From Halopseudomonas pelagia (GTDB taxonomy: Bacteria; Pseudomonadota; Gammaproteobacteria; Pseudomonadales; Pseudomonadaceae), in NCBI RefSeq assembly GCF_009497895.1, contig NZ_CP033116.1, positions 4,154,001 through 4,218,000 of the forward strand: a stretch of DNA of 64,000 nucleotides, in the 5' to 3' direction. Below the pieces are notes generated by a model, which made no database searches, was not told the origin of the DNA, and saw only the letters and a program-made list of their open reading frames with translations. The position numbers and the translations under genes are program-made. Position 1 is the first letter of the stretch. Each line of letters begins with the position of its first letter. This document shows positions 5,316 through 60,015 of this stretch, piece by piece.

Positions 5316-5493
5316 CTGTCCCTGGGGTGTTTGCCAGTCGGTGATGTCCCTGAGCCGATACTCCTGTAGAAGGAGGCCACGCGTTGCTGCCAGTGTGCAT
5401 GTCCGCATGACGGAAAGCCTGAGGAAGTGCCGTGTCCCCCACCTTGAACTTTCGGGTTCAAGGGCTAACCCGACAGCGGCATTTCCGGGGACT
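5316..5493 (+). ncRNA. ssrS: 6S RNA
   Basis: This roughly 178-nt stretch between zapA and ygfA has the Pseudomonas 6S signature: conserved blocks TGTCCCTGAGCCGATACTC, GTGTGCATGTCCGCATGACG and CCACCTTGAACTTTCGGGTT. The 5' GTCCC pairs with the 3' GGGGAC to close the long rod. 6S RNA mimics an open promoter and binds sigma70-RNA polymerase in stationary phase. A -10 box TATAGT (5305-5310) sits about seven bases before the proposed 5' end. Ends are approximate; identity is firm from position and sequence. Confidence 0.9.
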
Positions 5494-5498
5494 CTACC

Positions 5499-55274: not shown

Positions 55275-55446
55275 GGGTAACTCCTGTGGCTGACAAGACA
55301 GATGAACCGGGCGCCGTTTCGGGCCGCAGTCCAATTACAAGGCCGGGCATTTTCGCGCAAACAGCGCCCATGGGCAATGAAAACCCCGAGAAACCCCGCA
55401 GCGGCTGCACCAGCACCTGAAAATGCCCACGCACGTCGATCACACC

Positions 55447-55476
55447 GATCTATATCAATTAATTTTGATATAGATC
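55447..55476. promoter_or_regulatory. 12-6-12 perfect inverted repeat, likely SahR-type operator
   Basis: GATCTATATCAA and TTGATATAGATC are perfectly complementary 12-base arms separated by TTAATT. The dyad lies 35 bases before the ArsR/methyltransferase start, between it and the divergent tkt gene. AT-rich dyads with ATATCAA...TTGATAT-like halves fit ArsR-family binding sites of the SahR regulon, which controls the SAM cycle. Binding by the adjacent regulator is inferred; no other copy was noticed in the window. Confidence 0.75.
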
Positions 55477-55511
55477 TTGCAGCCCTCCCCTTACCCACCT
55501 ACACTGCCTGC

Positions 55512-56530
55512 ATGAACCAGATAGCGCACATAGCGCCGCCCCCCTCCAGCGCCACTGAACAGCTCGCCACCTTCTGCAAGGCCACGGGCGACGTTCTGCG
55601 CCTGGATATTCTGCGGGTGCTGCGCAATGACTCCTTCGGCGTACTGGAGCTGGCAAGAATTTTCGCCATGCGCCAGTCAGGCATGAGCCACCACCTGAAG
55701 GTCCTGGCCAATGCCGGACTGGTCAGTACCCGGCGCGAAGGCAATTCGATCTTCTATCGCCGCAGCCTGCCCGATACCAACCAGCCCTGGTTCGGCGTGC
55801 ATAGCCAACTGTTGGGCGGTATAGATGCGCTGCCACTGGAAACGGCACTGGCCGAGGCGATAGCCGAAGTCCACAGCCAGCGCGCCGACCTGTCACGGCA
55901 GTTTTTCGCGCGCTTTACCGATGGCACCCCAGCCCAGCAGGATCTGATTGCCCATTTCGGCCTGTACCGCGAACCGCTACTGGGCCTGATTGATAGCCTG
56001 AACCTGCCGACCAATGCCCTCGCGCTGGAAGTCGGCCCCGGCGAAGGCGGCTTTCTACCCGACCTGGCCAGCCGCTTTGAAAAAGTCGTGGGGCTGGATA
56101 ACGCGCCCTCGATGCTGGACCGCGCTCGCCAGCAATGTGCCGACGCCGGTCTGAACAATGTCGAATGCCTGCTCGCCGATGCGCTGCAGCCGCTGCCGTT
56201 AGCGCCGGCCGATTGTCTGGTATGCAATATGGTGCTGCACCATATGCCCGCGCCGGCGGAAGCGTTGAAGCGTTTTGCCGGTCTGATCAAACCCGGTGGC
56301 AGCCTGATCCTCACCGAGCTATGCAGCCATAACCAGAGCTGGGTGCGCGATACCTGTGGCGACCTGTGGCTCGGCTTTGATCAGCTTGACCTGAGTTATT
56401 GGGCCGGCGAAGCCGGACTGGTGCCCGGCAACAGCTTGTATATCGGCCTGCGAAACGGCTTCCAGATTCAGCTTCAGCAGTTCAGCAAACCACTTATTGA
56501 ACACGTTTTCCCAACAGAAGGGACCGCAGC

Positions 56531-56534
<4 letters not shown>
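55512..56534 (+). CDS. ArsR-family regulator fused to SAM-dependent methyltransferase (SahR-like)
   Basis: A 340-residue two-domain protein. An N-terminal winged helix-turn-helix of the ArsR type covers about residues 15-100 ([37 protein letters not shown]). A class I methyltransferase fold covers about 150-320 (motif [31 protein letters not shown]). Such fusions in Proteobacteria are reported or predicted to sense SAH/SAM and repress methionine-cycle genes. M-N-Q-I-A is chosen over a 70-codon upstream extension that runs through the operator. The stop overlaps metK (ATGA). Confidence 0.87.
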
Positions 56535-57715
<1,181 letters not shown>

Positions 57716-58298: not shown

Positions 58299-58543
58299 CC
58301 CGCTCGAGGGGCGCTGCAGCGACCGAAGGCTTTTCCGCTAGCACTGAGTGCTTGCGTGGAGACTTGGGGTCGGACCGTCGATGGCAAGGATGCCATCGAT
58401 GAGCCTACAGGGATGTATTCACGGCGAGTCCGGCCCCGAGTCTCCACGCGTGCACGCTGCCAGCAGAAGGCCAAAAGAGGTCGTCAGGCTCGAGCGTTGT
58501 CGTTAAAGAAACAACCGCGCCCATTCGCTAACTACGAATGGAG
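58299..58543 (+). promoter_or_regulatory. S-adenosylhomocysteine (SAH) riboswitch in the ahcY leader
   Basis: The leader has the SAH aptamer architecture. P1 is CGCTCGAG (58301-58308) with CTCGAGCG (58489-58496). The core GGGCGCTGCA and the CAGGCTCG strand match the conserved nucleotides. The lower variable arm is GCGACC (58319-58324) with GGTCGT (58479-58484). Pseudoknot P4 is GGGCGC (58309-58314) with GCGCCC (58517-58522). The expression platform is a CCATTCG/CGAATGG hairpin (58521-58541) covering part of the GGAG ribosome binding site and sharing two bases with P4. By family knowledge SAH binding switches ahcY on. The variable arm is unusually long (see the repeat). Confidence 0.88.
58348..58455 (+). 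repeat. long-stem hairpin (probable inserted repeat) inside the SAH aptamer
   Basis: 58348-58375 and 58428-58455 are nearly perfectly complementary over 28 positions, with one mismatch and a few G-U pairs. The apex holds a second perfect 7-bp hairpin (CGATGGC 58379-58385 / GCCATCG 58392-58398) followed by GAGCCTACAGGGATGTATTC. This layout, and the motif AGCCTACAGGGATGTATTCAC, resembles dispersed intergenic hairpin repeats seen in pseudomonad genomes. That resemblance is from memory and needs a genome search. Only this copy was noticed in the window. Confidence 0.65.
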
Positions 58544-58550
58544 TAATCGC

Positions 58551-59960
58551 ATGAGTGCTGTAATGAAAGACAAGAACTTTACTGACTACAAGGTTGCCGA
58601 TATCAGCCTGGCCGACTACGGTCGCCGTGAAATCATCATCGCCGAATCGGAAATGCCCGCGCTGATGGCCATGCGCAACAAGTACAACGCCGAGCAGCCA
58701 CTCAAGGGCGCGAAGATTCTTGGCTGTATTCACATGACCATCCAGACCGCCGTACTGATCGAAACGCTGGTTTCTCTGGGTGCTGAAGTGCGCTGGTCCT
58801 CGTGCAATATCTTCTCCACACAGGATCACGCCGCAGCCGCCATCGCTGCCGCCGGCGTTCCGGTCTTTGCCTGGAAAGGCGAAACCGAAGAAGAGTACGA
58901 ATGGTGTATCGAGCAGACCATCCTCAAGAATGGCCAGCCCTGGGACGCCAATATGGTCCTGGATGACGGCGGCGATCTGACCGAAATCCTGCACAACAAA
59001 TACCCGGCGATTCTCGACCACGTGCACGGCGTGACCGAAGAAACCACCACCGGCGTACACCGCCTGCTGGACATGCTGAAAAAAGGCACGCTCAAGGTGC
59101 CGGCCATCAACGTTAACGATTCCGTGACCAAGAGCAAGAACGACAACAAATACGGTTGCCGTCACAGCCTGAACGATGCCATCAAGCGCGCCACCGATCA
59201 CCTGTTGTCCGGCAAGCAGGCGCTGGTCATCGGTTACGGCGACGTGGGCAAGGGCTCGGCACAATCGCTGCGCCAGGAAGGCATGATCGTCAAGGTCAGC
59301 GAAGTCGACCCGATCTGCGCGATGCAGGCCTGCATGGACGGTTTCGAGCTGGTTTCCCCGTTCAACGACGGCATCAACGACGGCACTGCCGAGTGCATCA
59401 ACACCAACGTACTCGGCCGCATCGACCTGCTGGTGACCACCACCGGTAACGTCAACGTCTGCGACGCCAATATGCTCAAGGCATTGAAGAAGCGCGCCAT
59501 CGTCTGCAACATCGGGCACTTCGACAACGAGATCGATACGGCTTACACCCGCGCCAACTGGCATTGGGAAGAAGTCAAACCGCAGGTTCACAAGCTGCAC
59601 CGCACCGGCAAGGACAACTTCGACGCCAGCAATGACGACTATCTGATCCTGCTGGCCGAAGGCCGACTGGTTAACCTGGGTAACGCCACCGGGCACCCCA
59701 GCCGCATCATGGACGGCTCTTTTGCCAACCAGGTACTGGCGCAGATCCACCTGTTCGGTCAGGGCTATGCCAAGCTGTCAGCCGAGAAGAAAGCTGAGCT
59801 GCTGCGTGTCGAAGTACTGCCGAAGAAGCTCGACGAAGAAGTCGCATTGGAAATGGTCAAGGGCTTTGGTGGCGTGATCACCAAGCTGACCAGCAAGCAG
59901 GCCGACTATATCGGTGTCAGCGTCGACGGTCCGTTCAAGCCGGAAGACTACCGCTACTAA
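58551..59960 (+). CDS. ahcY: adenosylhomocysteinase
   Basis: A 469-residue NAD-containing enzyme hydrolysing SAH to homocysteine and adenosine. The NAD-binding motif [14 protein letters not shown] is near residue 225. [26 protein letters not shown] and the C-terminal KPEDYRY are diagnostic; length is the proteobacterial type. The frame is open 65 codons further upstream, but that stretch is the riboswitch, so ATG 58551 with GGAG seven bases before is the start. It is controlled, by sequence, through the SAH riboswitch. Confidence 0.97.
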
Positions 59961-59969
59961 AATCAGCGA

Positions 59970-60015
59970 CAGGCCAGGGCATCAAACTTCACACGAAGTC
60001 TGATGCCCTGGCCTG
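59970..60015 (+). other. 46-nt hairpin between ahcY and metF
   Basis: CAGGCCAGGGCATCA and TGATGCCCTGGCCTG form a perfect 15-bp stem. Inside, ACTTC-ACAC-GAAGT adds a further five pairs, giving an almost unbroken 20-bp rod. It starts nine bases after the ahcY stop and ends 20 bases before the metF ATG. There is no T-run, so it is not a canonical terminator. It may protect or cleave the message, act as a Rho/processing site, or be a repeat element. Confidence 0.75.

Follow-up and report, generated by a model that had tools for sequence, protein, structure and literature searches.

A dispersed YPAL/RU-2-type repeat within the P2 loop of the SAH riboswitch upstream of ahcY in Halopseudomonas pelagia

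The leader of ahcY in Halopseudomonas pelagia raises the question of what an S-adenosylhomocysteine (SAH) riboswitch is doing with a P2 arm far longer than usual, and where that arm came from. SAH binding is expected to switch ahcY on. The locus was analysed within a window of 64,000 nucleotides, positions 4154001-4218000 of a 4.55-Mb genome labelled G000 here. The closest named ahcY is that of Halopseudomonas pelagia with 95% identity, a comparison from which the own genome was possibly left out, and the Pfam-identified neighbors, metK (56531-57715) and methylenetetrahydrofolate reductase (at 60003), are consistent with the assignment of the gene. An earlier reading, made from the sequence alone, had proposed an SAH riboswitch before ahcY with a P2-side arm about 150 nt longer than usual, and both proposals were borne out by cmscan: the RF01057 model matched with 43.8 bits against a gathering threshold of 37 (E 8e-05), P1, P2 and the pseudoknot being recovered, and 152 nt were counted between the P2 strands. 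The locus thus shares P1, P2, the ligand core, the pseudoknot and the place upstream of ahcY with the typical SAH riboswitch, and differs from it in that the P2 loop consists of 152 nt from a dispersed repeat. Riboswitch and insert are co-directional with the gene, and the leader folds with a minimum free energy of -133.1 kcal/mol, where shuffled sequences average -96 (z -7.29) and none of 200 folds as well.

Table 1. Features of the ahcY leader, with positions counted in the window.
Feature	Position	Strand	Basis
SAH riboswitch aptamer (RF01057), enlarged P2 arm	58300..58529	+	cmscan
P1 5' strand, partner 58490-58496	58301..58307	+	fold; 7-carrier alignment
Pseudoknot strand GGGCGC, partner 58517-58522	58309..58314	+	located by eye in sequence
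P2 5' strand, partner 58479-58484	58319..58324	+	fold; 7-carrier alignment
Inserted segment, missing from short-P2 relatives	58325..58478	+	19/35 ahcY genomes of genus short-P2
Repeat hairpin 5' arm	58348..58375	+	inverted-repeat search
Dispersed YPAL-type repeat, model R1 match	58358..58444	+	98.5 bits, E 1.6e-19; copy in R1 training set
Repeat hairpin 1	58376..58401	+	hexaloop AAGGAT 58386-58391, closing pair C58385-G58392
Repeat hairpin 2	58403..58425	+	hexaloop AGGGAT 58409-58414, closing pair C58408-G58415
Repeat hairpin 3' arm	58428..58455	+	inverted-repeat search
P2 3' strand, partner 58319-58324	58479..58484	+	fold; 7-carrier alignment
P1 3' strand, partner 58301-58307	58490..58496	+	fold; 7-carrier alignment
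Pseudoknot strand GCGCCC, partner 58309-58314	58517..58522	+	located by eye in sequence
ahcY, S-adenosylhomocysteine hydrolase	58551..59960	+	Pfam PF05221 + PF00670 (AdoHcyase)

The extent and the regularity of the extra segment had been drawn too narrowly and too strictly, respectively. The hairpin arms do lie at 58348-58455, where the extra length had been placed, but everything between the P2 strands is extra relative to the short-P2 relatives (Table 1), and the arms of 28 nt, separated by a 52 nt spacer and once described as an almost perfect 28-bp inverted repeat, are 86% complementary and near-perfect only when G-U pairs are counted. Across the seven genomes that carry the insert before ahcY, 93.9% of the alignment cells of P1 and 95.2% of those of P2 are paired, with both-side changes at three of the six P2 pairs, while the six pseudoknot pairs are 100% paired and all invariant, so that the pseudoknot offers no covariation evidence of its own. 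The pairing of P1 and P2 together with the invariant pseudoknot indicates that the aptamer is retained and that the repeat is kept as a hairpin above P2 in the carriers, as far as the aligned leaders tell. Within the same seven leaders 91.2% of the cells pair, 54 cells carry changes in both partners, a number that none of 500 shuffles attains, and the covariation is 0.312 where slid structures do not exceed 0.068, values to be read with the structure having been drawn from the own genome's fold, which favors that structure. Four of the five covariation measures beat all 500 shuffles, and the fifth, the count of further pair types (44), was matched by 78 of the 500 and is unremarkable. The inserted stem that adjoins the repeat core is paired in 98.3% of cells with both-side changes at 11 of 17 pairs, and the portion that adjoins P2 is weakly conserved (helix 5, 53.8% paired). 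An insert common to seven carriers and showing compensatory changes is not a recent one.

All 35 ahcY leaders of the genus (37 genomes searched, ahcY in 35 at E <= 1e-100) were read. Seven carry the insert (G000, G006, G013, G024, G009, G032 and G035), one (G034) holds what looks like a shortened remnant of it, 19 have the short P2, which agrees with the expectation that sister leaders would lack the long arm, and eight are without an SAH leader, as defined by absence of the core motif (at most two mismatches) from the 330 nt before the start together with no over-threshold RF01057 match. A genus-wide RF01057 search placed 24 of the 37 genomes above the cut-off and missed the riboswitches of four genomes (G000, G024, G032 and G035), presumably in the initial screening step, and its negatives were therefore not used alone. 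The eight genomes without a recognizable SAH riboswitch before ahcY (G003, G005, G007, G014, G021, G025, G028 and G033) form one clade of the ahcY tree, neighboring the main insert-carrying clade, in which the riboswitch has apparently been lost. A long arm with covarying substitutions in all relatives had been named as the sign of an ancient aptamer part; such an arm was found among the carriers, but not across the relatives.

The ahcY tree, which is that of the gene and not of species or leader, and whose groups were named after the tree had been seen, places G000, G006, G013 and G024 in one supported clade (100/99), and a second group, consisting of G009, G034, G032 and G035, is interspersed with short-P2 genomes. 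A single clade of all eight insert or remnant leaders was rejected (p-AU 1.1e-54), and the second group alone as a clade was also disfavored (p 0.017), so P2 has probably been hit by insertion more than once; since the gene tree need not equal the tree of the leaders, transfer or repeated loss could mimic this pattern. Between the two carrier groups the arms show only weak similarity, which is compatible with two insertions or one old one. Among 80 named ahcY loci, 77 show the motif, and the two matched motifs lie at most 28 nt apart in 72 of the 77 and at least 66 nt apart in five, one of which is H. pelagia with 164 nt. The other four (L071, L083, L084 and L087, from Pseudomonas or Stutzerimonas) have different long P2 arms, with 66-84 nt between the motifs and TGTTT[CT]G[AG]ATC in common. 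The possibility that such an arm is itself a repeat was dropped: the L083 arm, the sole query in this search, had one match in its own genome, one in that of L087 and none in the other two, and it was treated as a different, non-repeat growth of P2.

The extra segment of H. pelagia had been suspected to be a dispersed repeat, and this was upheld by BLAST of 58340-58460, which found 12 places in the genome, the query site included. Seventeen copies went into a covariance model (R1): 12 of the own genome, the window copy among them, and five from ahcY leaders of relatives. All 17 had been selected for GGA[CT]G in each loop, so that these letters are circular for them. R1 matched at least 35 copies in the own genome at E <= 0.1, the one in the ahcY leader included, 34 of them above 45 bits; the count is a lower bound, as 150 of 1552 candidates were scored and 120 had given 34. 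A pattern search gave 10 matches against none for its reversed control. The training alignment holds 131 cells changed on both sides, with a covariation of 0.655 against at most 0.138 for slid structures and 0 of 500 shuffles reaching any of the five measures. Matches to R1 were observed in 28 of the 37 genus genomes, in 54 of 274 genomes and 49 of 222 genera of the class sample, and in 17 of 299 genomes of the phylum sample, all 17 belonging to the class of the window.

In the own genome, 34 of the 35 copies lie outside called ORFs, and the remaining one, 1384195, shares 40 nt with the end of an ORF, according to our own ORF calling. Twenty of the 35 form 10 inverted pairs, 57-181 bp apart, of which eight run minus then plus; examples are 1384195/1384462 and 4519250/4519428, where each member has locus-specific arms. 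With respect to genes, in contexts assigned by hand from the ORF calls, 12 copies are antisense and 10 sense to co-directional neighbors, 11 are convergent and two divergent, and the 15 singletons comprise four sense and six antisense copies between co-directional genes, three convergent and two divergent. A family-wide function in neighboring mRNAs was dropped as the singletons show no sense bias, and the 12 antisense against 10 sense copies indicate that the family is not positioned for action in mRNAs. Some copies hold a nested, hairpin-like second insert of about 50 nt within the loop of hairpin 1 (L264, L265 and L268 in the own genome; L275, L290, L300, L314, L317 and L318; and L150, the ahcY leader of G032); at one locus it is filled in G000 and empty in G006 (L268/L295), and at another it is filled in G006 and G013 and empty in G000 (L314 and L318 vs L254).

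The repeat is recognizably of a described kind. Its core aligned locally to the published RU-2 of Yersinia, printed as RU-2/YPAL in Table 1b of PMC2759123, with a score of 53, the best of 2000 shuffles reaching 29. By the descriptions in PMC2759123 and PMC2229807, in both a CGTC precedes a hairpin containing CAAGGATG, which is followed by GAGCCTACANGGATGTATTNACGGCG, and both are dispersed and mostly intergenic; the published element is about 168 bp and belongs to Yersinia (and Erwinia carotovora), whereas the repeat described here has locus-specific arms and hosts across the class. TwoAYGGAY RNA (RF01731), predicted to bind CsrA according to PMC4333381, likewise has two GGA-loop hairpins and a poorly conserved outer stem and may work like the window repeat, but does not show as a relative: RF01731 matched neither the 281 nt of the insert region in the window at E <= 10 nor any of 14 loci at E <= 1. 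The CGTC-tagged REPs, as described in PMC3733652, resemble the repeat in having CGTC before a short hairpin, in often forming inverted pairs and in lying at times within long palindromes, and differ in being 20-40 bp long and mainly alphaproteobacterial, a comparison made by description and not letter by letter. Ysr224 (RF02770), a Yersinia sRNA in Rfam, holds the same core but on the opposite strand, and its matches stay below the gathering threshold of 70, with 25.7 bits at the window and up to 51.3 in L198. Among the open-licence literature matches listed, no report was found of the repeat outside Yersinia/Erwinia, of a CsrA link of the repeat or of a riboswitch with such an insert. The SAH riboswitch and the YPAL-type repeat are known kinds, and their combination, the breadth of the family, the strand-specific wobble bias and the double Csr/Rsm-type loops described below were not met in those matches.

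The repeat follows a plan of two hairpins within an outer stem, whose arms vary in sequence from locus to locus and pair with themselves, extending from the core junction by a median of 26 nt (range 19-29; 40 in the window copy) in 34 of the 35 copies, one degenerate copy being excluded. On the GGA strand, G·T accounts for 42 arm mismatches of these 34 copies, A·C for 4 and other kinds for 17, and the ratio of G·T to A·C is 11:1 for antisense, 13:0 for sense, 13:1 for convergent and 5:2 for divergent copies. Outside the modelled positions, and hence free of selection by the model, it is 66:6 (with 32 others) in 91 copies of four genomes, among which orthologues are not independent, and 23:3 in G000 alone. 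The G·T excess in every gene orientation shows that the constraint acts on one strand, so that the constrained molecule is single-stranded and has a defined polarity, whether RNA or ssDNA.

Divergence between orthologous copies follows the same architecture. Located by both flanks, 44 orthologue pairs were found and 36 used (no nested inserts, enough flank); against the nearest genome, G006, 20 copies differ at 28 of 1143 core positions (2.4%), 123 of 1077 arm positions (11.4%) and 680 of 3292 positions of the adjacent flanks (20.7%). Against G013 (10 copies) the core, arms and flanks differ by 2.5%, 11.3% and 23.7%, and against G024 (six copies) the contrast is weaker, with 14.0%, 25.5% and 30.5%. 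Hypervariable arms, which had seemed to evolve faster when set against partly coding flanks of 400 nt, were rejected, the arms being slower than the immediate flanks (11.4% vs 20.7%). Among 524 arm pairs followed from G000 to G006, 33 carry double changes that still pair, 20 single changes that still pair and 20 are broken, and slid controls gave at most two double changes.

In the window copy, each of the two loops is a C-ANGGAN-G hexaloop sitting directly on its stem, a form that corresponds to the high-affinity consensus for RsmE/CsrA in PMC4005645, where an ANGGAX hexaloop is carried by a stem without intervening nucleotides. Counted over 94 distinct copies, with gapped copies excluded position by position, loop 2 shows C in 92/93, A in 93/93, a variable position, G in 93/93, G in 93/93, A in 93/93, T/C/A in 47/42/1 and G in 91/91; loop 1 shows C in 91/93, A in 73/93 (otherwise C), a variable position, G in 89/91, G in 87/87, A in 83/83, T/C in 63/20 and G in 89/93. 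Of the 94 copies, 69 hold two C-ANGGAN-G motifs, 23 hold one, one holds three and one holds none; in other genomes of the class, two are present in 27 of 30 copies (27 best-hit loci), one in two and three in one. Six of the seven ahcY carriers keep both motifs, and G032 has an insert in loop 1. In sequence and stem form the loops thus strongly resemble Csr/Rsm sites, and the two hairpins are candidate docking sites for CsrA/RsmA on the leader. The own genome has one csrA match; in the class sample, csrA presence does not separate repeat-bearing genomes (50/54) from the others (185/220), and the four repeat-bearing genomes outside the csrA positives are G044, G105 and G136, which are 67-88% complete, and G232, which is 98% complete.

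Taken over this evidence, it is considered likely that a copy of a dispersed YPAL/RU-2-type repeat inserted into the P2 loop of the SAH riboswitch and has been retained there. The sequence-only reading had already suggested a mobile element in this loop, and dispersal and empty sites now speak for it, mobility itself being deduced from those two. The copy would have arrived by mobility with a hairpin as its target, as reported for YPAL; PMC2229807 describes YPAL targets as spanning or adjoining dyad symmetry, with target duplications of 3-26 bp, and insertion at the apex of P2, which is a hairpin too, agrees with this preference. With the insert stacked on P2 as one long hairpin, formation of P1, the ligand core and the pseudoknot would not be impeded, and ahcY would be expected to stay under SAH control. 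That P2 was instead enlarged anciently in the genus and reduced in most lineages, no insertion having taken place, is very improbable: the carriers do fall into two separated parts of the ahcY tree, the arms covary in situ and long P2 arms of another kind (66-84 nt) exist in four Pseudomonas/Stutzerimonas leaders, yet the core of the insert is a genome-wide repeat, whereas the arm of L083 matches its own genome once, and each short-P2 lineage would need a clean loss.

What the inserted repeat does at present is a separate matter. It is rather doubtful that the insert is a neutral relic whose arms owe their complementarity to template switching at a palindrome and not to selection; template-switch correction would yield paired changes such as the 33 double changes in the 524 arm pairs, and dispersed repeats are often neutral, but this would leave unexplained why G-T mismatches outnumber A-C ones 42:4 on the core strand whichever way the genes run, and why the core diverges about eight times less than the adjacent flanks. 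Co-option, in which RsmA/CsrA binds the two hairpins and alters the stability or translation of ahcY mRNA to give a two-input leader, is compatible with the insertion reading and is judged unlikely. It would draw on the published high-affinity form of both window loops, on the constancy of A, GG and A in loop 2 (93/93 copies) while N and the last position vary, on the csrA match of the genome, and on the sense orientation of the window copy in a leader where both motifs are kept in 6/7 carriers; it is weakened by the same loops being kept in copies antisense to genes, which makes their conservation not specific to ahcY, by the distance of the sites from the ahcY start codon (137-165 nt upstream), by a csrA distribution that does not discriminate and leaves four repeat-bearing genomes outside, and by Ysr224 having the core on the opposite strand. 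The broader idea that the repeat is a widespread gammaproteobacterial family of dispersed structured RNAs, each copy a double CsrA/RsmA docking site whose insertion into leaders writes genes into the Csr/Rsm network, with ahcY reading both SAH and the Gac/Rsm state, is put forward tentatively and is held to be more doubtful than not. With the insertion reading, the repeat is at present most likely a passenger that the leader tolerates and whose Rsm input is weak or latent, and a strong regulatory role is possible. The locus would then exemplify a natural route of domain gain in riboswitches, in which a peripheral loop takes up a dispersed repeat without loss of the aptamer and the added arm then evolves under pairing constraint; and if the C-ANGGAN-G loops bind RsmA, they would offer a testable route by which repeats spread the sites of a global regulator through genomes, and a possible reason for the conservation of YPAL-type repeats.

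Other features were also observed in the window. Directly upstream of metK, 55302-56534 on the plus strand encodes a fusion of an ArsR-type HTH with a methyltransferase domain; the ArsR-family SahR is an SAH regulator elsewhere, according to PMC4239095, and by this analogy the fusion might add another sensor, for SAH or SAM, to the cluster. A 6S RNA (RF00013) was detected at 5316-5495 on the plus strand of the window with 110 bits.
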